Under the pieces are notes generated by a model, which saw nothing but the letters and a program-made list of their open reading frames with translations, was not told the origin of the DNA and did not search any database. Of a stretch of DNA of 10,503 nt, positions 763-10,503 are shown piece by piece. The position numbers and the translations under genes are program-made. Position 1 is the first letter of the stretch. Each line of letters begins with the position of its first letter. The stretch is from assembly GCA_947374105.1 (NCBI GenBank), contig CANCAO010000029.1:1-10503 (forward strand), given 5' to 3'. Origin of the DNA: Comamonadaceae bacterium. GTDB taxonomy: Bacteria; Pseudomonadota; Gammaproteobacteria; Burkholderiales; Burkholderiaceae_C.

Positions 763-1131
763 ATGCGCAAGTACAGCGAAGAACACGTTTGGCTCAAAGT
801 AAAAGGCCAAAGCGCCACCGTCGGCATCACGCACCATGCGCAAGACACCTTGGGCGATATCGTGTTTGTCGAGCTACCCCCCATCGGCAGCACCCACGCG
901 CAAGGCGCGGTGGCGGGTGTGGTGGAGTCGGTCAAGGCAGCGGCCGATGTGTTCATGCCGGTGACGGGCCAGATCACCGAGGTGAATGAGGCCCTGCGTG
1001 ACGATCCTTCGCTGGCCAACAGCGACCCGCTGGGTGCGGGCTGGTTCTTCAAGGTCAAGCTGACGTCACCTGACCAAATTTCGGCATTACTGGATGAAAC
1101 GGCCTATGCCGCGCTGCTGGCCAACACCTGA
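763..1131 (+). CDS. gcvH: Glycine cleavage system H protein (lipoyl carrier)
   Basis: H protein carries the aminomethyl group on a lipoyl arm between the P, T and L proteins of the cytoplasmic glycine cleavage complex. At 122 residues it is close to the usual length (about 125-130). It opens with KYSEEHVWL and has [20 protein letters not shown] at 20-39, then [19 protein letters not shown]58 in ESVKAA is the lipoylation site. The end ([13 protein letters not shown]) is also typical. A GGAG 5 nt upstream supports ATG 763. No gcvT or gcvP lies beside it, unlike the usual T-H-P operon. It is therefore either the sole H gene placed apart or a second copy; the window cannot decide. Its TGA abuts the stop codon of the convergent nitroreductase gene with no base between. 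Confidence 0.95.
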
Positions 1132-1766: not shown

Positions 1767-2855
1767 TCAAGAGCGGGTGGGTGACAAGTGTGCCAACTGC
1801 GGCATCAAACGCAACGCATTGCCGCGATCAATGGCTTGGCGCTCAGGCGCGGTGAAGCTTCTATCGGCCAAGCCTTGACGCACCTCCTCACCGGGGCGAT
1901 AGGGGTAGTCGGTACCAAACAAAATTTGAGACGGTGGCACCAGCACGCGCAAGGCGGCCATGGCACCCTCGTGGTGTCCTTGGGCGGTGTCGTAATAAAA
2001 CTTCTGCACTTCGCTGAGAACGCCCAGGGGTAAGACCAGCTTGGCTTTTTCTTTCATGTCGGTTTCTTGGCGCGTGAAGCGGCTCCACAAAAACGGCATG
2101 GTGCCGCCGCTGTGTGACCAAATCCAACGGATGTCGGGGAAGCGATTCGCCGCACCGCTGAACAGCAAGCTGGCAATGGTGCGCGAGGTGTCGGCGGCAA
2201 ACTCCAGTGATGAGTTGGGCAGGCCCTCCACCAAGTTGCGGCAGCACGCCGCCATCAAGGGATGGGTGTAGATGACGGCTTTACGCCGATTCAGTTCTTC
2301 CCATATGGGCCAGAAATGTTTGTCGCCCAGGTACTTGTCGCCGTAGCTGGTCATCAGTCCAATGCCATCGGCTTTCAAGGTGTCAAATGCGTAGGCAATT
2401 TCACGCAGACTGCCCGGCACGTCCATCAGCGGCAAGGTTGCAAATGAGCCAAAACGGCCAGGGTAGTCACGCGCCATTTGCGCCGCGTATTCGTTGGACT
2501 CGCGTGCCAGGCGCTGGTCGGTGGGTACGTCGCTCAAAAAAGCACCGGGCTGCATCAAGGCCACGACCGAGGTTGCAATGCCGTTTTTGTCCATGTCTTC
2601 AATCGACATTTGTGGCGACCATTTCGGTGCGCCGCCACCGCCCAGCCGCTTGAGATCAGCTGCATAAGAAGGTGGAACGATGTGGTGGTGGATGTCGATG
2701 CGGTGTGGCTGGGCCGTAGCGTTGCCAGGGCTACCCATGCCTGTTTGACAACCCGCCAAGGCCGATGCGGCCCCTGCGGCCAGCAGGCCTGAGAGAAAGC
2801 CACGGCGGGGTGGGTTGGCGACTTCACAGTGGCAGTCATTCAAGTGGGTGAGCAT
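1767..2855 (-). CDS. ACMSD-type (amidohydrolase 2) metal-dependent hydrolase/decarboxylase, exported by Tat with lipobox
   Basis: This 362-residue TIM-barrel protein belongs to the amidohydrolase-2 (ACMSD-like) family, which decarboxylates or hydrolyses aromatic and related acids with a divalent metal. Expected ligands are present: IDIHHH at 53-58 (H56 and H58), H198 in YTHP, H248 in SHSGG and D316 in GTDYPY. The N-terminus has a twin-arginine motif (RRGFLSG, 17-23), a hydrophobic stretch and LAGC with C36. This suggests Tat export of a folded metalloenzyme and possible lipidation at C36. ATG 2855 is chosen because AAGGA lies about 9 nt upstream; an in-frame ATG at 2912 would overlap the preceding gene and displace the signal. 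Close family members include 6-methylsalicylate decarboxylase-like proteins, but the substrate is not determinable. It lies between the NTF2-like and nitroreductase genes. Confidence 0.87.
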   Translation of the reverse strand: MLTHLNDCHCEVANPPRRGFLSGLLAAGAASALAGCQTGMGSPGNATAQPHRIDIHHHIVPPSYAADLKRLGGGGAPKWSPQMSIEDMDKNGIATSVVALMQPGAFLSDVPTDQRLARESNEYAAQMARDYPGRFGSFATLPLMDVPGSLREIAYAFDTLKADGIGLMTSYGDKYLGDKHFWPIWEELNRRKAVIYTHPLMAACCRNLVEGLPNSSLEFAADTSRTIASLLFSGAANRFPDIRWIWSHSGGTMPFLWSRFTRQETDMKEKAKLVLPLGVLSEVQKFYYDTAQGHHEGAMAALRVLVPPSQILFGTDYPYRPGEEVRQGLADRSFTAPERQAIDRGNALRLMPQLAHLSPTRS

Positions 2856-2877
2856 GGTGGTGTGTCCTTTGTCTGTT

Positions 2878-3468
2878 TCAAGAGGCATGAAGCCAAGTGT
2901 GAGATTGGGCAATCAGTTGATCTAAAGCGGGGCCGCTGGCGGTTGGTAGATTCGGGTTGACCACGCCCCCGGCCTGGGTTTGCAGGTAGGCCAAGTGTCG
3001 GTAGCCTTCGGGGAATTTCTCCAGCATTTCAGGGTCTAGCTGGATAGCGGCTTGCGGGTTCACCGGGTCAAGGCGGTCTTTTTCATAGACGACGCAGCGC
3101 TTGGCGATTCGCCATGTGTTTTGGCGCTTTTCAACGCAATCAAAGAAGCGCCCCACGCTAGTGACGTCAACGGCTTGATCATCGATCATGCCGCGCACCA
3201 GGATCGACATGCGCGTTTGGGCCACGGCCCGTGATCCTTGAATCTCCAGCACGGTGGAGCCGACAAAATGCTGAGAGCGAGAGCCCTTGCGCCAAGACGC
3301 TTGCAGGGCGTCGATGAAGCCGTCAAAACTGCCGTGGTACCAGGTGGCCGTCATGGTGGCGTCATCGTGCACGGTGCTGCGAAGTCGCTCCCAGTCGCCG
3401 ATGTCGCGATACATCGCCCAGCTTTGCACCAGCTCGGTGATGGTGAGTCTTTCAATCAGATCTTGCAT
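2878..3468 (-). CDS. SnoaL-like / NTF2-fold protein (nuclear transport factor 2 family)
   Basis: This 196-residue protein has the alpha+beta cone architecture of SnoaL_4/NTF2-like proteins in residues 1 to about 135. An N-terminal helix (LIERLTITELVQSWAMYRD) leads to the DxGDWERLRSTVHDDATM segment. SRSQHFVGST and a closing strand pair (NTWRIAKRCVVYEKD) follow. The family includes isomerases, dehydratases and dioxygenase small subunits with different active sites, so no reaction is assigned. A C-terminal extension of about 60 residues, ending HTWLHAS, continues beyond the fold. It has no signal peptide, so it is probably cytoplasmic, unlike its exported neighbours. It starts 21 nt after the TTT receptor stop and ends 22 nt before the amidohydrolase start. 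The region ahead of ATG 3468 has no strong Shine-Dalgarno, so translational coupling is possible. Confidence 0.83.
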   Translation of the reverse strand: MQDLIERLTITELVQSWAMYRDIGDWERLRSTVHDDATMTATWYHGSFDGFIDALQASWRKGSRSQHFVGSTVLEIQGSRAVAQTRMSILVRGMIDDQAVDVTSVGRFFDCVEKRQNTWRIAKRCVVYEKDRLDPVNPQAAIQLDPEMLEKFPEGYRHLAYLQTQAGGVVNPNLPTASGPALDQLIAQSHTWLHAS

Positions 3469-3489: not shown

Positions 3490-4512
3490 CTACTCTTGCG
3501 CAATGCCCACACTGCGCAACAAACGCGGCCATTTGTTCAGCTCGGACTTGAGCATGGCATCGGTCTGTACCGTGTTCAGCTCCAAAATTCGACCACTGCC
3601 CTGTTGCAATTTTTTGCGCACCTCGGGGGACTGCATGGCGATGTCAATTTCTTTGCGCAGGCGCTCCACAATCGCGGCCGGTGTTTTGGCGGGCACAAAC
3701 AGGCCGAACCAGGTTTCCATCTCCAGGTCGATGGCTCCGGTCTCGATCAAGGTGGGAATTTGCGGCGCATCGGGCGCACGCTGGCGGCTGGACACGGCGA
3801 AGGGTTTCAACTGACCTGACTCAATGAAGCTGCGGGTCGTGGTGGAGTTGTCAAAAAACAAATCTACACGCCCACCCAGCAAGTCCAGGTACACGGGTTG
3901 CGCGCCTTTGTAGGGCACCAGTTGCAGATCGACCTTACCCAGGCCACGCATTAAAGCGGCCAGGATGTACTGACCCGTGCCCGGCCCACTGGTGCCAAAG
4001 TTGAGCTTGCCGGGGTTGGCGCGCGCATAGGTCATCAGCTCTTTGACGGTGTTGAAGGGCAAGTCATTGCGCCCGACCAGGGTGTAGGAGTGCGAGACCA
4101 CCAAGCGCAAGGGGATGAAGTCGGTCAGCGGATCATAGCCCGGCTGTTTGTACAGCCCCATATTGAGCGCCATATTGGACAAGCCACCCACCACGATGTG
4201 ATGGCCATCGGCGGGCGCACGGGCAATGGTTTGCGTGCCCAGCAAGGTGCCACCACCGGAGCGGTTTTCAATAAAGAACTGCTGGCCCATTTGCTCCGAC
4301 AACTTGGCACCCAACACCCGCGCGACCAAGTCAAAACCGCCACCTGACGCCGAGGGTGCAATGATGCGAATGGGTTTGCTAGGGTAGTCTTGGGCATGCG
4401 CGAGGGCGGATGAGAGCAAGACAAGCAAAGCAAGGCAGCGTTGACCTAGCGCATACCAGCGAGACGGTGTGGTTTTGATAGGTCGCTTTGGGTTGAAGTC
4501 ATTGAGCATCAT
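3490..4512 (-). CDS. Tripartite tricarboxylate transporter (TTT) substrate-binding protein, Bug/TctC family
   Basis: This 340-residue protein is a periplasmic solute receptor of the Bug family. These receptors pass organic acids to a TctA/TctB membrane pair. The signal peptide is clear: a basic stretch, LALLVLLSSALAHA, and probable cleavage after A40 before QDYPSKPIRIIAP. Family hallmarks follow: SASGGGFDLVARVL, FFIENRSGGGTLLGTQ, NFGTSGPGTGQYI, VPYKGAQPVYLDLLGGRVDLFFD and the late FGLFVPAKTPA. ATG 4512 (or the adjacent ATG 4509) places the signal peptide 14-15 residues in; an upstream ATG at 4572 would add 20 unlikely residues and cover the palindrome at 4533-4553. No tctA or tctB gene is in the window. 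Orphan receptors of this kind are abundant in Burkholderiales. It is the first gene of the minus-strand unit, so the three enzymes downstream may act on its ligand (inference). Confidence 0.93.
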   Translation of the reverse strand: MMLNDFNPKRPIKTTPSRWYALGQRCLALLVLLSSALAHAQDYPSKPIRIIAPSASGGGFDLVARVLGAKLSEQMGQQFFIENRSGGGTLLGTQTIARAPADGHHIVVGGLSNMALNMGLYKQPGYDPLTDFIPLRLVVSHSYTLVGRNDLPFNTVKELMTYARANPGKLNFGTSGPGTGQYILAALMRGLGKVDLQLVPYKGAQPVYLDLLGGRVDLFFDNSTTTRSFIESGQLKPFAVSSRQRAPDAPQIPTLIETGAIDLEMETWFGLFVPAKTPAAIVERLRKEIDIAMQSPEVRKKLQQGSGRILELNTVQTDAMLKSELNKWPRLLRSVGIAQE

Positions 4513-4532
4513 GACCCGGATTATTGTGCGAA

Positions 4533-4553
4533 CCGAGCCGTTTAAGCGCTCGG
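4533..4553. promoter_or_regulatory. Palindromic site upstream of the Bug receptor gene (candidate operator)
   Basis: CCGAGC and GCTCGG form a perfect 6-bp inverted repeat with a 9-nt centre, ending about 20 nt ahead of the receptor ATG. Position and symmetry would suit a regulator of the four-gene unit. There is no direct evidence of binding. Confidence 0.3.
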
Positions 4554-4594
4554 GCTTACCCGCACCTCCCATCAGTCGAACTGAATTTCTGAAG

Positions 4595-4629: not shown

Positions 4630-5361
4630 CTAAGCCCAATAAGCCGGATCCGGCAGTTCATTAAACACCTTGCGCAATTGTTCTGCCCAGCTCTCTCGAA
4701 TAGAAGCAAAGTAAGGGTCTTTGTTGTCTATCAGCTTGCGTCTGCTGATTCGCAGTGCATCGCGCTCGTAACACATCAGATCCAGTGGCAAACCGACGGA
4801 AAGATTAGATTTGATGGTTGAGTCCATTGAAATCAGGCAGCATTTGGCCACTTCGTCCAAGGTCAAACCACCACCAATCACGCGATCAAGAATCGGCTTT
4901 CCGTACTTGGATTCACCGATCTGGAAGAAAGGTGTTTCTTCAGTCGCTTCAATGAAGTTACCAGCCGAGTAGATATTAAACAAACGAGGCGGCTCCCCCT
5001 TGATCTGGCCACCGAAAATCATATTGGCATTGAATTCGATATTGAACGACTTGAGCGATTCGGCATCTCTTTCATACACTTTCCGTACAGCGTCTCCCAC
5101 TATTTTTGCTGCTGAAAACATGTTGGGGGCTGATGCAAGACTCTTTTCGCCATCATTTCCCATTTGCACGCGCAAACCGCTCGCGACCGATTGGCTGACA
5201 GAAAGGTTGCCAGCCGTCAAAAGTACCATGACACGCTCGCCTGGCACCTCGAAGGTGTGCATCTTGCGAAAGGTGCTGATCTGATCCAAACCAGCGTTGG
5301 TACGGGAATCAGAGAGAAAAACCAGGCCGGACTCGCTCTGGACTGCAACGCAATAGGTCAT
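4630..5361 (-). CDS. Anbu: bacterial proteasome-type peptidase (ancestral beta subunit family)
   Basis: This 243-residue Ntn-hydrolase belongs to the Anbu family, a bacterial relative of HslV and the 20S proteasome beta subunit. After Met removal Thr2 (MTYCVAV) would be the N-terminal nucleophile. The companion residues are D18 and R20 in LSDSRTNAG and K33 in TFRKMH, matching the Thr1/Asp17/Lys33-type centre. The next parts, VMVLLTAGNLSVSQ and NANMIFGGQIKGEPPRLFNIYSAGNF, are also family-typical. It probably assembles into rings or helical open structures and hydrolyses peptides in the cytoplasm; the native substrate is not known. It sits 72 nt after the alpha-E gene, in the Anbu cluster context. 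There is no clear Shine-Dalgarno before ATG 5361. Its base composition is visibly lower in GC (sampled lines 40-50%) than the receptor gene beyond it. Confidence 0.93.
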   Translation of the reverse strand: MTYCVAVQSESGLVFLSDSRTNAGLDQISTFRKMHTFEVPGERVMVLLTAGNLSVSQSVASGLRVQMGNDGEKSLASAPNMFSAAKIVGDAVRKVYERDAESLKSFNIEFNANMIFGGQIKGEPPRLFNIYSAGNFIEATEETPFFQIGESKYGKPILDRVIGGGLTLDEVAKCCLISMDSTIKSNLSVGLPLDLMCYERDALRISRRKLIDNKDPYFASIRESWAEQLRKVFNELPDPAYWA

Positions 5362-5380
5362 TCAGAAACAATGTAGTTGT

Positions 5381-5411
5381 AAAAAAGGAGGCATCATATC
5401 CGGCATGATGC
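5381..5411 (-). terminator. Hairpin plus T-run between alpha-E and Anbu (weak intrinsic terminator or attenuator)
   Basis: On the minus strand GCATCAT (5411-5405) and ATGATGC (5397-5391) make a perfect 7-bp stem with a 7-nt loop. CTCC and then six T residues (5386-5381) follow. The order stem then T-run matches an intrinsic terminator for transcripts coming from alpha-E. The stem has only three G-C pairs and is separated from the T-run by four bases, so read-through into Anbu is likely. Confidence 0.4.
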
Positions 5412-5433
5412 TAGCCATCCAAGATTAGCCAGC

Positions 5434-6393
5434 TCAGGCTGTAGCAGGCATCAGAAAGTCGCGACTAATGCGGGCACCCAAGTCGTTGACCCGGTCCAGA
5501 AACTGACTCAGATAGGCGTGCAGTCCTGTGGCAAGAATTTCGTCAATACTTCCAAACTGGAGTTCAGCACACAGTTTTCCTGCATGCCGATGGGTCTCGC
5601 CAGATTGATCATTGGAGACCATGGCCAGATTGCTAACAACCTCATTGAGACTGGCATGCAATGACCGGGGCATGTCCTGTCGCAAGATCAACAGTTCAGC
5701 AACACGCTCAGGTTTGATCACATCGCGGTACACCTTGCGGTAAATTTCGAAGCCTGAAACGCTACGCAAAATGGCACTCCAATGGTAGAAGTCGTACTCC
5801 TGATCTTTCTCGCTGGCCGCACCAAAGAAGTCACTTTGCAAAGCATGGAACTTGACATCCAGCAAGCGGGCTGTATTGTCAGCCCGCTCCAAAAACGTGC
5901 CTAGGCGCATGAAATACAGCGCCTCGTCGGTCAGCATAGTGCCCAACGTCACCCCACGCGACAAGTGTGAGCGGAATTTGACCCAATCTAAAAATTGACC
6001 TGGATCACGCTCGAACTCATCGTCGCTGATCATACGAAGCACTTCAAGCCAAGTCTGGTTCTGGGTCTCCCAAACCTCGGTCGTCAAGGTTCCCCGAACC
6101 GCACGTGCGTTCTCGCGAGCGGCACGCAAGCAAGACAGAATGGAAGACGGGTTGGATTCGTCCTTGACCATGAAATTCATCACATCCTTGGCATTAACCT
6201 CGCCGTGCAGGGCGGTGTATGCAGGCAGCAGTTCGCTGATGCTCAACAGGCCTTGCCATCCCAACAAGGCCACAGCCTCGGACTGAGGCAACAGCGCAGT
6301 CTGATAATTCACATCCAGCATGCGAGCGGTATTTTCGGCCCGCTCGGTATAGCGGGACATCCAGAACAAGTGATCGGCAGTACGTGACAGCAT
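5434..6393 (-). CDS. Alpha-E domain protein (DUF403)
   Basis: This 319-residue, mostly helical protein belongs to the alpha-E family, a regular partner of circularly permuted ATP-grasp proteins, transglutaminase-like proteins and Anbu. It begins MLSRTADHLFWMSRYTERAE. The glutamate/arginine-rich motif occurs twice: ERAENTARMLDV at 17-28 and ERADNTARLLDV at 169-180. This shows the internal duplication typical of the family. The conserved W, R and E residues suggest a binding surface, but no catalytic activity is established. There is no signal or membrane segment, so it is cytoplasmic. AAGGAA lies about 8 nt before ATG 6393. The gap to the ATP-grasp stop is only 17 nt, so the two are surely cotranscribed. 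By genomic association it is thought to help the ATP-grasp enzyme in peptide-bond formation (inference from the literature on this neighbourhood). Confidence 0.92.
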   Translation of the reverse strand: MLSRTADHLFWMSRYTERAENTARMLDVNYQTALLPQSEAVALLGWQGLLSISELLPAYTALHGEVNAKDVMNFMVKDESNPSSILSCLRAARENARAVRGTLTTEVWETQNQTWLEVLRMISDDEFERDPGQFLDWVKFRSHLSRGVTLGTMLTDEALYFMRLGTFLERADNTARLLDVKFHALQSDFFGAASEKDQEYDFYHWSAILRSVSGFEIYRKVYRDVIKPERVAELLILRQDMPRSLHASLNEVVSNLAMVSNDQSGETHRHAGKLCAELQFGSIDEILATGLHAYLSQFLDRVNDLGARISRDFLMPATA

Positions 6394-6410
6394 GGTCTGA
6401 TTCCTTGTGC

Positions 6411-7913
6411 TTAATTCGACTGTGATTGAGACTGCGATGGCTTCGGTGAGGTAACGTCACTCTCCAAAATCCACGTATCCTTGGTGCCACCACCCTGTGA
6501 TGAATTGACAACCAGCGACCCCTCCTTCAGCGCCACACGCGTCAAGCCACCCGGCACCATTTGCACCGTCTTGCCGCTAAGGACATAGGGACGCAAATCA
6601 ATATGTCGCGGTGCTATACCACTTTCCACAAACGTGGGGCAACTCGATAGGCTCAAAGTGGGTTGGGCGATATAGCCACTCGGGTTAGCCAAAACCGCCT
6701 TGCGGAAGTCCTCAATCTCGGCAGAGGTAGCCGCCGGCCCCACCAACATGCCATAGCCACCAGCACCATGCACCTCTTTAACCACAAGATCCTTAAGGTT
6801 AGCCAGCGTGTAGGCCAGATCATCCTTATTTCGGCACATATAGGTGGGCACATTTTTAAGGATGGGCTTCTCACCCAGATAGAACTCAATCATCTTGGGC
6901 ACATAAGGGTAGATAGACTTGTCATCTGCCACGCCTGTTCCCACTGCGTTGCAGATCGTCACGTGGCCCGCGCGATACGCCTCCAGCAAGCCTGCGCAAC
7001 CCAGAGTTGAATCGGCCCGAAATACTTTTGGATCGAGGAAATCATCGTCCACTCGACGGTAAATCACGTCCACCCGACGCGGGCCACGCGTGGTGCGCAT
7101 ATAAACGAAGTTGTCTTTCACGAATAGATCCTGGCCTTCAACCAGCTCTATACCCATCTGTTGGGCCAGAAAGGCGTGTTCGAAATAGGCACTGTTGTAC
7201 ATGCCTGGGGTCAACAAAACCACGGTGGGTTCAGCAGTCGTAGCAGGGCTGGAGTCGCGCAGCGTCTCCAGCAACAGATCGGGGTAATGAGCGATGGGGG
7301 CAACGCGATGGGCGTTGAAGAGCTCGGGAAACAATCGCATCATCATCTTGCGGTTTTCAAGCATGTAGCTCACGCCGCTGGGCACCCGCAGGTTATCTTC
7401 CAGAACATAGTACTCGCCCTCGCCCTGGGCATTGGGAGCACGGACGATATCAACGCCGGAAATATGGGAGTAAATATTGCCTGGCACATTGACGCCGACC
7501 ATCTCCGGCCTGAACTGCGCGTTGTGCGTGATCTGCTCCGCTGGAACCAAGCCGGCTTTGATGATCTCCTGCCCGTGGTACACATCGTGGATGAATCGGT
7601 TCAAAGCCGTGACGCGCTGCACCAGTCCACGCTCCATGCTGGCCCACTCATGGGCCGGGATGATCCGTGGAATCAGGTCAAACGGAATCAGGCGTTCAGT
7701 CCCCGAGCCGTCTTCGTCTTTAGCGCCGTACACCGCAAAGGTGATTCCCACGCGCCTAAAAATCAGCTCGGCTTCCTCACGACGCTTGGCCATCATGTCG
7801 CCCGGCTGTCGCGCTAACCACTCATCGTAGATCTTGTAATGGTTCCGGATCTGTTTACCCTTCGAGAAAAACTCGTAGGGCATGGCGGTATACATTTCGT
7901 CAAATCTTTGCAT
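6411..7913 (-). CDS. Circularly permuted ATP-grasp protein (type 2; former DUF404/DUF407)
   Basis: This 500-residue protein belongs to the circularly permuted ATP-grasp family. Relatives couple ATP hydrolysis to carboxylate-amine ligation, and this group has been predicted to make amide or peptide bonds. Visible motifs are YVLEDNLRVPSGVSYMLENR at 169-188, VVLLTPGMYNSAYFEHAFLA (231-250), KEVHGAGGYGMLVGP at 379-393, RHIDLRPYVLSG (436-447) and SSQGGGTKDTWIL at 471-483. After the last motif comes a 17-residue tail ending in SQSQSQSN, which looks disordered and is an addition to the fold. A strong GGAGGA lies 9 nt before ATG 7913. It is the first gene of the minus-strand Anbu unit, followed at 17 nt by alpha-E. 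It is divergent from the transglutaminase/amidoligase gene across a 158-nt region. The biochemical substrate is unknown. Confidence 0.93.
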   Translation of the reverse strand: MQRFDEMYTAMPYEFFSKGKQIRNHYKIYDEWLARQPGDMMAKRREEAELIFRRVGITFAVYGAKDEDGSGTERLIPFDLIPRIIPAHEWASMERGLVQRVTALNRFIHDVYHGQEIIKAGLVPAEQITHNAQFRPEMVGVNVPGNIYSHISGVDIVRAPNAQGEGEYYVLEDNLRVPSGVSYMLENRKMMMRLFPELFNAHRVAPIAHYPDLLLETLRDSSPATTAEPTVVLLTPGMYNSAYFEHAFLAQQMGIELVEGQDLFVKDNFVYMRTTRGPRRVDVIYRRVDDDFLDPKVFRADSTLGCAGLLEAYRAGHVTICNAVGTGVADDKSIYPYVPKMIEFYLGEKPILKNVPTYMCRNKDDLAYTLANLKDLVVKEVHGAGGYGMLVGPAATSAEIEDFRKAVLANPSGYIAQPTLSLSSCPTFVESGIAPRHIDLRPYVLSGKTVQMVPGGLTRVALKEGSLVVNSSQGGGTKDTWILESDVTSPKPSQSQSQSN

Positions 7914-8071
7914 AACAACTTATCCTCCGGCATTAGCTTAGCTTAAATGACATGAAGCAAGGATCGGGCCATGTAGAGAATCTGATCGTGGCGTGATCCT
8001 TGCTTAACATCATCAGGCTAGTATGTGTACATAACGCGTTCTATTTTCTTCAACCTGCTACGAGACACCCC
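7914..8071. promoter_or_regulatory. Divergent promoter region of the Anbu cluster
   Basis: This 158-nt region separates the start codons of the ATP-grasp (minus) and transglutaminase/DUF2126 (plus) genes, so it must hold both promoters. It contains the long inverted repeat at 7955-8005. A smaller 12-bp dyad, TATGT-GT-ACATA, lies at 8022-8033. A tandem GCTTA repeat lies near 7936. Each outward end of the long repeat reads TTGCTT, a possible -35 for either direction. On the minus strand GCTAAT lies 17 nt further on, but this would put the transcript start almost at the ribosome site, so the promoter assignment is weak. Confidence 0.55.
7955..8005. repeat. Perfect 11-bp inverted repeat (candidate shared operator)
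   Basis: AAGCAAGGATC at 7955-7965 and its exact complement GATCCTTGCTT at 7995-8005 are separated by 29 nt. Such a match is unlikely by chance in a 158-nt gap. Its central position between divergent promoters suits a dimeric regulator with two sites, or DNA looping. The arms could also fold as an RNA stem. No T-run follows, so it is not a terminator. Confidence 0.6.
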
Positions 8072-10503
8072 ATGTCCATTCACGCCGCGCTGAACCATGT
8101 AACCCATTACACGTATGACCGTTTGGTTAACTTGGGGCCGCAAATCATTCGCTTGCGCCCAGCGCCGCATTGCCGCAGCAAGATCATTTCGTACTCGCTC
8201 AAGCTTGAACCCGCCAATCATTACATCAACTGGCAACAAGATCCATTCGCCAACTACCAGGGGCGACTGGTGTTTCCCGAGAAGACGAAGGAGTTCAAGA
8301 TCACTGTCGATATGGTGGTCGAGATGGCTGTGTATAACCCCTTCGATTTTTTCCTGGAACCCAGTGCTGAGAAATACCCATTTAAGTACGAAACCCTTCT
8401 TGCACAGGAGCTTGCCCCTTATCTGGCAGCCGATCACCTGACCAAGCGGTTACGAGCCTGCTTGGCGCGTATTGACCGTCGAAAACGCCGAACGATCGAT
8501 TTTCTGGTAGCCGTCAATCAAATGGTCCATGAAGACATTAGTTATTTAATTCGCATGGAACCGGGCGTGCAGACGCCCGATGAAACACTCAAATTGGGCT
8601 CCGGCTCCTGCCGGGACTCCGCCTGGTTGCTGGTGCAATTGCTGCGCCACTGCGGTCTGGCCGCACGTTTTGTCTCAGGCTATCTGATTCAGCTCAAGTC
8701 GGACGTTAAGGCGCTGGATGGGCCGAGTGGCACAGAAGTCGATTTCACTGACCTGCACGCTTGGTGCGAGGTGTACCTGCCCGGTGCTGGCTGGGTCGGA
8801 CTCGACGCCACCTCGGGACTGCTGGCCGGTGAAGGGCATATCCCACTGGCTTGCACACCGCAGCCTTCAGGGGCAGCCCCGATTGAAGGTGGTATGGACA
8901 AGTGTGAGGTAACGTTCTCCCATCACATGGCCGTCACCCGCATTTACGAGTCACCGCGTGTCACCAAGCCCTACACCGAGGACCAATGGCAAGACATCAT
9001 GGCGCTCGGTCACGTTGTGGACAAAGAGTTGGACGCCGGTGACGTGCGTCTGACCATGGGCGGCGAGCCCACCTTTGTGGCCGTGAACGATCGGGATGCA
9101 CCAGAATGGAACACCGATGCACTGGGGCCGACCAAACGCGGTTTCGCCACCGAGTTGGTGCAAAAACTGCGCGCCGAATACGGCGAGGGCGGCTTTTTGC
9201 ACTTCGGCCAAGGCAAGTGGTACCCCGGCGAGCAGTTGCCGCGCTGGGCGCTCAACATTTATTGGCGGGCCGATGGTCAACCCGTATGGGCCGACCCCAG
9301 CCTGTTTACCGACGAGCGTGTACCGACCCACTACAGCAGCGAGGATGCCGAGCGTTTCACGCGAACCCTGGCGTCCAAGCTGGGCGTGACCGACCAGTTC
9401 ATCCAAAGCGCCTATGAAGACACTTGGTACTACCTGTGGCGCGAGCGCCGCCTGCCCGTCAACGTGGATCCCTTTGACTCCAAGCTGGACGACGAAATGG
9501 AGCGCGCCCGGCTACGCCGCGTGTTTGAGCAAAAACTGGACACCGTGGTCGGCTATGTACTGCCCGTCAAAGCCGGTGAAGTGACCGGCAAGGTGGGGAC
9601 GGTGTGGAGCACCGGTGCCTGGTTTTTGCGTGATGAGCGCATGTACCTGATGCCTGGTGACTCGCCCATGGGACTGCGCCTGCCGCTGGACTCATTGCCC
9701 TGGGTCAGCGAAGCCGATTACCCTTACCTGATTGAGCAAGACCCATCGACACCGCGTGACCCCTTGCCCACGCATGGCCATCTGGCAACGCGCTATGCGT
9801 CCAACCTGTCTGGCCCTGCCCGGAACGAGACAAGCTGGACTCAGAAAGAACCGGTTCCATCCCATCAACCCACGCTTCAGACCGCCAGCGCCTCGACCAC
9901 CAGCCCTGCGTCAACCAGCGCCCAAAGCACCACGCAGACTGAGCCAGCCAACTTTGCGCGTGTCCCGACGCGCAAGGAATCAGCCCACTGGCTCACCCGA
10001 ACCGCCTTGTGCGTGGAAGTGCGTGACCCGCGTAGGGCCAGCGGCCCCAAGGCTGAAGCCGTAGGGGAAAAATCAGGCGTGTTGTATATCTTCATGCCGC
10101 CACTCGAAAAACTGGAAGACTACCTCGACCTGCTGGTCGCCATAGAGGCCACGGCACAAACCCTGGGCGTAACAATCGTCCTAGAGGGCTACCCACCACC
10201 GCGCGACCCGCGACTCAAACTATTGCAAGTCACACCCGACCCCGGTGTGATCGAGGTCAACATACACCCGGTCAACAACTGGGGCGAACTGGTTAAGAAC
10301 ACCGAGTTTTTGTACAACGCAGCCTTCGAGTCGCGTCTGTCGGCCGAGAAGTTCATGAAAGATGGCCGTCACACCGGCACCGGTGGAGGCAACCATTTCG
10401 TCATGGGGGGTGCCACGCCCGCAGACAGCCCATTCCTGCGAAAACCAGAGTTATTGGCCAGCCTGCTGCTGTACTGGCATAACCATCCATCCCTGAGTTA
10501 TCT
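8072..10503 (+). CDS. Transglutaminase-like protein fused to DUF2126 putative amidoligase, 3' end cut by window edge
   Basis: The open frame gives 810 residues before the right edge; family members are usually around 1,100. The N-terminus (MSIHAALNHVTHYTYDR) is the bacterial transglutaminase-like N domain. The core follows with a complete Cys-His-Asp triad: C180 in GSGSCRDSAW, H229 in TDLHAWCEVY and D245 in WVGLDATSG. From about residue 300 the DUF2126 region starts (LTMGGEPTFV). Motifs include EGYPPPRDPRL (705 on), EVNIHP (728-733), GRHTGTGGGNHF (765-776) and WHNHPSLSY at the edge. DUF2126 is classed as a putative amidoligase of glutamine-synthetase-like fold. A Ser/Thr/Pro-rich linker spans about 578-632. 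ATG 8072 fits the family start; the ribosome site is weak. No signal peptide is seen. It may make or break amide bonds in the same peptide cycle as Anbu (inference). Confidence 0.93.
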   Translation, partial: MSIHAALNHVTHYTYDRLVNLGPQIIRLRPAPHCRSKIISYSLKLEPANHYINWQQDPFANYQGRLVFPEKTKEFKITVDMVVEMAVYNPFDFFLEPSAEKYPFKYETLLAQELAPYLAADHLTKRLRACLARIDRRKRRTIDFLVAVNQMVHEDISYLIRMEPGVQTPDETLKLGSGSCRDSAWLLVQLLRHCGLAARFVSGYLIQLKSDVKALDGPSGTEVDFTDLHAWCEVYLPGAGWVGLDATSGLLAGEGHIPLACTPQPSGAAPIEGGMDKCEVTFSHHMAVTRIYESPRVTKPYTEDQWQDIMALGHVVDKELDAGDVRLTMGGEPTFVAVNDRDAPEWNTDALGPTKRGFATELVQKLRAEYGEGGFLHFGQGKWYPGEQLPRWALNIYWRADGQPVWADPSLFTDERVPTHYSSEDAERFTRTLASKLGVTDQFIQSAYEDTWYYLWRERRLPVNVDPFDSKLDDEMERARLRRVFEQKLDTVVGYVLPVKAGEVTGKVGTVWSTGAWFLRDERMYLMPGDSPMGLRLPLDSLPWVSEADYPYLIEQDPSTPRDPLPTHGHLATRYASNLSGPARNETSWTQKEPVPSHQPTLQTASASTTSPASTSAQSTTQTEPANFARVPTRKESAHWLTRTALCVEVRDPRRASGPKAEAVGEKSGVLYIFMPPLEKLEDYLDLLVAIEATAQTLGVTIVLEGYPPPRDPRLKLLQVTPDPGVIEVNIHPVNNWGELVKNTEFLYNAAFESRLSAEKFMKDGRHTGTGGGNHFVMGGATPADSPFLRKPELLASLLLYWHNHPSLSY

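Follow-up and report, generated by a model that had tools for sequence, protein, structure and literature searches.

The window analysed here, which is the entire 10,503-base contig CANCAO010000029.1 (C29) of a Comamonadaceae bacterium, carries two divergent gene arms: arm A encodes a circularly permuted ATP-grasp ligase, an alpha-E protein and the proteasome-like peptidase Anbu, and arm B begins with a transglutaminase-DUF2126 fusion. The reading that these arms form a system for making and breaking amide bonds, induced by nitrogen limitation, equipped with a ligase in each arm and constituting a variant of the known Anbu operon, has about an even chance of being correct; within it, a joint pathway is likely and nitrogen control of the cluster is fairly likely. 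The finding is real and is known in kind. The present analysis adds the two-arm layout, sigma-54-like promoter boxes on both arms, a loss of key residues from the ATP-grasp encoded beside DUF2126, an argument from the glutamine synthetase (GS) fold, and an exchange of Anbu; nitrogen control of related clusters has already been published in part (PMC5491218, PMC8050072, PMC7801951). Anbu features in debates on proteasome origins, and the long-open function of its cluster becomes testable.

Judged by their profile scores, the gene families of the locus are beyond doubt, and the four linked genes with a divergent arm that had been proposed in a preliminary description of this DNA were confirmed by profile searches. 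On the minus strand, the ATP-grasp gene (6411..7913) matches PF14403 with 554 bits, retains its key residues and is homologous to PDB entry 3n6x, named by its depositors a putative glutathionylspermidine synthase. The alpha-E gene (5434..6393, minus strand) matches PF04168 with 332 bits, and sequence searches gave no solved relative for it. The Anbu gene (4630..5361, minus strand) encodes a putative N-terminal nucleophile (Ntn) hydrolase that matches five PDB Anbu sequences over its whole length with 244 to 333 bits, the value of 333 being for the designed Anbu 5loy. The gaps are 72 bp between Anbu and alpha-E, 17 bp between alpha-E and ATP-grasp, and 158 bp between the divergent arms. A gene for a TctC-type solute receptor (window 3490-4572, minus strand) lies 57 bp after Anbu in the same orientation, and the two may be co-transcribed. 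By their ATP-grasp gene, the named loci closest to the window are mostly from Rhodoferax, Variovorax, Polaromonas and other Comamonadaceae, and one very similar genome (G002) has an ATP-grasp 100% and an Anbu 98% identical to those of the window. Two contigs labelled Akkermansia muciniphila (CALPVM020000008.1, L023) and Singulisphaera (CALPYQ020000115.1, L040) have ATP-grasp genes that share 88% and 86% identity with that of the window, respectively; they are most likely mis-binned or mislabelled metagenome bins.

The catalytic residues of arm A are conserved throughout. Asp155, Glu172, Asn174, Lys379, Asp439 and Arg441 are present in all 105 stand-alone ATP-grasp genes compared (in this count, and in those of 43, 34 and 33 genes below, the query row is not included), and a set from across the phylum has the same residues in 31 of 31 genes, with Lys478 in 29. 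By analogy with GshB-type enzymes, Glu172, Asn174, Lys379 and Asp439 are taken here to be metal/ATP residues, Glu172 and Asn174 presumably forming the ExN metal motif. The intact Anbu centre claimed in the preliminary description (Thr2, Asp18 and Lys33, with Met1 counted) is found in 43 of 43 Anbu genes.

The transglutaminase-DUF2126 gene of arm B starts at an ATG at 8072 and runs to the end of the window (8072..10503, plus strand); because the window spans the whole of contig C29, its truncation is due to the assembly, in which the source genome is 59% complete and split into 378 contigs. By profile matches, it encodes a Bact_transglu_N domain (residues 7-84; 8090..8323), a Transglut_core domain (8465..8809) and a DUF2126 domain (8897..10501, profile positions 1-481 of 826), all on the plus strand. 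The transglutaminase triad, likewise predicted to be intact, aligns as Cys180/His229/Asp245 in 34 of 34 genes. The locus is whole in G002 (L114), where, after a full-length transglutaminase-DUF2126 protein of 1164 residues, an ATP-grasp/alpha-E fusion (895 residues) and a second transglutaminase (330 residues) are encoded, with families confirmed. In the window's own genome, contig C250 carries the C-terminus of DUF2126 (profile positions 753-826), the fusion gene and most of the second transglutaminase; the DUF2126 profile positions imply a gap of about 0.8 kb between C29 and C250.

The ATP-grasp domain of the fusion looks catalytically dead by its residues. Glu172, Asn174 and Asp439 are absent from 33 of 33 fused genes of the family, and the glycine-rich loop, Asp330-Lys332 and Asn470 are mostly lost; Asp155 (33/33), Lys379 (31/33) and Arg441 (33/33) are retained. 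In 20 further fusions from across the phylum, hand-picked from 36 listed, Glu172 (Asp in one fusion), Asn174 and Asp439 are missing throughout, and Lys379 is mostly lost as well. Since 31 of the 36 listed fusions lie no more than 3 kb from DUF2126, the degenerate ATP-grasp and that domain mostly occur together; three genomes (G083, G251 and G254) have a listed fusion and no DUF2126 match. A literature search that did not cover Iyer et al. 2009 or Hervas et al. 2009 turned up no recognised report of a degenerate ATP-grasp of this kind.

A structural model of the DUF2126 domain of a relative has a glutamine synthetase fold and matches GS, GmaS and YbdK. A whole-length model (predicted local distance difference test score, pLDDT, of 57) matched the transglutaminase structure 3isr and a C-terminal beta-sandwich, with GS absent from the 50 rows shown, and an hhalign comparison of DUF2126 with GCS2 gave no match, its alignment being shallow (effective sequence number, Neff, of 2.3) and its rows imperfectly cut. 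Candidate active-site residues, chosen by eye (the Glu of GGEPT, ExN, NH and ExR), are invariant in 104 rows. A low-complexity stretch rich in Ser, Thr, Pro and Gln lies inside DUF2126 at about 9830-10030 of the window, and the matching part of the relative was modelled with low confidence. Because the fused ATP-grasp is without its predicted metal residues and the DUF2126 model is GS-folded, the ligation of arm B is probably carried out by DUF2126; a degenerate ATP-grasp next to this domain indicates which ligase of arm B to examine first and predicts a pseudoenzyme scaffold.

Within the 158 bp between the arms, pattern matching identified two outward-pointing sigma-54-like -24/-12 boxes, 17 bp apart: TGGCCCGATCCTTGC (7957..7971, minus strand) faces the ATP-grasp, alpha-E and Anbu genes, and TGGCGTGATCCTTGC (7989..8003, plus strand) faces transglutaminase-DUF2126. 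The window alone is weak evidence, as a loose sigma-54 pattern is not enriched in it (23 matches versus 18.4 expected), and the case for the boxes therefore rests on relatives. In the window, 80 named loci and 20 further loci (L114-L133), a box with at most two mismatches, GG and GC kept, within 250 bp upstream precedes ATP-grasp in 83 of 92 sequences and transglutaminase-DUF2126 in 40 of 44, compared with shuffle means of 5.0 and 2.1 and with 32 of 291 among the remaining upstream regions in the 80 named loci. When at most one mismatch was allowed, the numbers were 58 of 92, 34 of 44 and 6 of 291, respectively. After removal of near-copies, boxes within 150 bp upstream were counted in 71 of 81 and 29 of 33 sequences (dinucleotide-shuffle maxima of 11 and 5). 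A few counted boxes are at unusual distances, such as that of L004 at -151. Four of the 96 ATP-grasp genes above 80 bits (L053, L119, L120 and L133) and four of the 48 transglutaminase-DUF2126 genes (L078, L119, L127 and L132) are outside these promoter counts, the start not being placed or less than 120 bp being present upstream.

The back-to-back geometry of the boxes was ruled out as a fixed trait, the boxes of G004 being about 200 bp apart. In four of nine listed loci (L004, L012, L015 and L059), a gene that appears by eye to be ComEC-like, and that is not found in the window, lies between transglutaminase-DUF2126 and ATP-grasp; each arm keeps its own box despite the intervening gene. NtrC-like palindromes with at most three mismatches occur upstream of ATP-grasp in 36 of 90 sequences versus 1 of 90 shuffled, and upstream of transglutaminase-DUF2126 in 4 of 44 versus 2 of 44 shuffled, which is not an enrichment. 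A protein above the ntrC cut-off is encoded in four of four genomes checked.

The genes of the two arms also occur together across genomes. In a sample of 200 Pseudomonadota genomes, the window's own included and kinship ignored, 116 genomes match PF14403 (113 of them above its curated cut-off), 63 match DUF2126 and 69 match Anbu; for Anbu, the hits in G075 and G207 are weak or partial. PF14403 is present in 68 of the 69 Anbu genomes and all 63 DUF2126 genomes, and also in 48 of 131 genomes without Anbu. By coordinates hand-copied from the listed matches, Anbu lies within 6 kb of ATP-grasp in 58 of 69 genomes and within 6 kb of DUF2126 in 15 of 69. Sixty near relatives, again with the window's own genome and regardless of kinship, comprise 41 with a permuted ATP-grasp of either kind and Anbu, one with Anbu only, three with ATP-grasp only and 15 with neither. 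This co-occurrence, a check suggested in the preliminary description, rules out chance adjacency. Given that the genes co-occur, and that Anbu, the stand-alone ATP-grasp and the transglutaminases all have conserved catalytic residues, neither of the two patterns that the description had named as arguing against a joint pathway, missing co-conservation and degenerate catalytic residues in most orthologues, is seen. The joint pathway it proposed therefore stands; its account of the two arms was incomplete, leaving out the dead-looking second ATP-grasp, the second transglutaminase of arm B and nitrogen control.

The same description called the cluster Anbu-centred, which does not hold: Anbu is not a fixed centre of the cluster. 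Among 36 genomes of the window's family, 31 have Anbu, each with one match only, and in 21 of the 31 it is distant from ATP-grasp. None of the 80 named ATP-grasp loci has an Anbu open reading frame above 80 bits, among frames of at least 120 residues and with some loci short. The unlinked Anbu loci that were inspected (L146-L167) number 22, these 21 and one of the order. A box of their own was considered for the unlinked Anbu genes and rejected: 6 of 22 have one with at most two mismatches (4 with one), above the control (32 and 6 of 291) and far below the arms. A protein of about 900 residues, MutS by eye, is encoded upstream of the unlinked Anbu in 15 of the 22 loci, immediately adjacent in 12, and a further conserved gene is nearby in 9. 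On a plasmid of Azospirillum sp. TSH58 (L286), neither ATP-grasp nor alpha-E was recognised within about 9 kb of an Anbu gene at 9001-9735. In an Anbu tree, the window gene groups with those of G001, G002, G004, G016 and G037 (support 100/100), and 22 unlinked genes of the family are set apart from this group (99/99); the ATP-grasp tree rejects a clade of the same six genomes (p-AU 0.0009). The simplest reading of these trees is that the window lineage swapped its Anbu for a horizontally acquired copy, which would have been inserted behind alpha-E.

For nitrogen control, published work on related loci provides the analogy. A cluster of B. cenocepacia H111 annotated as DUF404/407, DUF403, a transglutaminase and a large transglutaminase was expressed 6- to 9-fold less in nitrogen-limited cells of an ntrC mutant and was counted among the common sigma-54/NtrC targets (PMC5491218). 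In P. putida, the promoter of PP_2688 (ATP-grasp) responded 3.7-fold to nitrogen depletion and that of PP_2685 (Anbu) did not, and the mRNAs of both genes rose on nitrate versus ammonium (PMC8050072); PP_2686-2688 (transglutaminase, presumably alpha-E, and ATP-grasp) were induced 11- to 15-fold in the wild type (PMC7801951). No link to the cluster was found in PMC5748707 or PMC8829014 as available. The ATP-grasp of a Y. bercovieri operon released phosphate from ATP (PMC6376114); like nitrogen control, this activity was demonstrated by others, in a related locus. The boxes on both arms, together with the published nitrogen control, suggest that the arms belong together and that the cluster should be looked at under nitrogen depletion.

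For the reactions, their direction and the parts played, we infer the following scheme. The system would be cytosolic, and both arms would use the divergent sigma-54-type control region, being switched on when nitrogen is short. In arm A, ATP-grasp would activate a carboxylate with ATP and join it to an amine with the help of alpha-E, and Anbu would cleave by hydrolysis an amide or peptide bond in the product or in the product's protein carrier. In arm B, DUF2126 would perform the ligation as a GS-type ligase, and the fused ATP-grasp/alpha-E protein, its ATP-grasp chemistry lost, would serve as a scaffold or substrate-binding partner. Both transglutaminase domains would transfer or hydrolyse (iso)amide bonds. 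Because the gaps between the window genes leave little room for a tag gene (open reading frames below 80 residues are not listed), the enzymes probably act on a metabolite, on a generic peptide or on a protein whose gene lies elsewhere. Tentatively, and with some doubt, arm B may be a duplicate of an Anbu-type module, its chemistry having passed to DUF2126 and the dead fusion having been kept phylum-wide as a scaffold or sensor that presents one and the same substrate to the ligase and the transglutaminase; the two arms would then act on one nitrogen-starvation substrate, which Anbu, replaceable by horizontal transfer, would reset.

Several observations weigh against this scheme. Foldseek itself gave the DUF2126 model no significant E-value, the best being 0.17. 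Outside the order, boxes are rarer in the phylum sample, own genome included, preceding ATP-grasp in 15 of 31, transglutaminase-DUF2126 in 6 of 31 and Anbu in 0 of 33 sequences (shuffle maxima of 4 for each), and within the unlinked set 16 of 22 Anbu genes are without one. The 450 bp before ATP-grasp in the window contain no NtrC-like palindrome with up to four mismatches, and those before transglutaminase-DUF2126 (four mismatches at -442, three at -454) are inside the ATP-grasp gene. Of four genomes searched for RpoN, the three relatives have it, and it was not found in the window's own, 59% complete genome. PP_2686-2688 of P. putida were also induced 14- to 20-fold in an rpoN mutant, as were the urt genes of the same table, and PP_2685 (Anbu) only 1.12-fold in the wild type (PMC7801951 Table 2). 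Another B. cenocepacia record has ATP-grasp, alpha-E, transglutaminase and Anbu in canonical order, with no box of at most one mismatch before the genes and no DUF2126 within 9 kb, so the nitrogen control of H111 cannot simply be carried over to Anbu. The Anbu of Y. bercovieri cleaved none of three peptide substrates and its pull-down gave no specific operon partner (PMC6376114); the available portions of the published Anbu-operon work give no Anbu activity or substrate.

Other functions for the same genes are less probable than the nitrogen-responsive two-ligase system. One is a small-molecule pathway in which the ligases make a nitrogen store or a metabolite resembling glutathione or a gamma-glutamyl compound, to be recycled by Anbu and the transglutaminases. 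The homology of ATP-grasp to the putative glutathionylspermidine synthase 3n6x, the matches of the DUF2126 model to GS, GmaS and YbdK, and the nitrogen control of related clusters (PMC5491218, PMC8050072) are all consistent with such a pathway, which is nevertheless rather unlikely: the presence of transglutaminase domains and of a proteasome-like peptidase points to peptides or proteins as substrates, and next to the arms the window has only the TctC-type receptor gene and no obvious biosynthetic gene. A still less likely function is tag-and-degrade, with ligases adding a small peptide or amino acid tag and Anbu degrading or de-tagging the product, comparable to Pup and the proteasome or to ubiquitin and deubiquitinases (DUB). 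This hypothesis is in print for the Anbu operon, as is the view of the operon as a site of peptide synthesis (PMC5666114, PMC6376114), and Anbu, with its intact triad, is homologous to the proteasome; the short intergenic gaps, the absence of an AAA+ unfoldase from the ten window proteins scanned, the open-ring dodecamer formed by Anbu homologues (PMC5666114) and the failure to detect peptidase activity in the published assays (PMC5666114, PMC6376114) argue the other way; a tag might be encoded elsewhere.

It is improbable that Anbu simply breaks down peptides to scavenge nitrogen during starvation, the ligase and transglutaminase genes being merely co-regulated neighbours. The higher P. putida Anbu mRNA on nitrate than on ammonium (PMC8050072) and the frequent separation of Anbu from ATP-grasp, in 21 of the 31 family genomes, would fit; yet Anbu without ATP-grasp is rare (1/69 in the phylum sample, 1/42 among relatives), and the box is missing from most unlinked Anbu genes.

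Elsewhere in the window, a GcvH-like gene (763-1131, plus strand) adjoins a partial alanine-racemase-like gene (2-715) that scores below the BhcC cut-off, and no other glycine cleavage genes were found beside it among the window proteins scanned. An amidohydrolase gene (1767-2912, minus strand), whose product has by eye a twin-arginine-like leader and a lipobox-like LAGC, adjoins a SnoaL-like gene.

Several known systems resemble the cluster in part. The Rlo and Rim systems also pair an ATP-grasp with a peptidase, and Rlo has an inactive transglutaminase-like protein as well; their peptidases are aspartic and retropepsin-like, secreted in Rlo, and alpha-E is not mentioned in the available part of their description (PMC12239564). 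Genes I35_5080-83 of H111 are alike by annotation (DUF404/407 for ATP-grasp, DUF403 for alpha-E, a transglutaminase and a large transglutaminase) and are NtrC/sigma-54 dependent, whereas Anbu is not among the genes named in the portion of PMC5491218 available, the comparison being by description only. The Rv2566-type transglutaminase-carboxylate-amine ligases (PMC2588565; PF09899, DUF2126) have, as here, an N-terminal transglutaminase-like domain and a predicted GS/GCS2 ligase; PMC2588565, as far as available, gives domain architecture and gene neighbourhoods, to which a modelled fold and a degenerate neighbouring ATP-grasp are added here. The canonical Anbu operon (PMC5666114, PMC6376114) shares with the window the ATP-grasp, alpha-E and Anbu families, their common direction, the intact triad and, in P. 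putida, a nitrogen response (PMC8050072, PMC7801951). Its order, ATP-grasp, alpha-E, transglutaminase, Anbu, differs from that of the window, where no stand-alone transglutaminase lies between alpha-E and Anbu. Unlike the canonical operon, clusters of the window's kind have a divergent transglutaminase-DUF2126 arm, a degenerate ATP-grasp/alpha-E fusion, a second transglutaminase and a common intergenic region.

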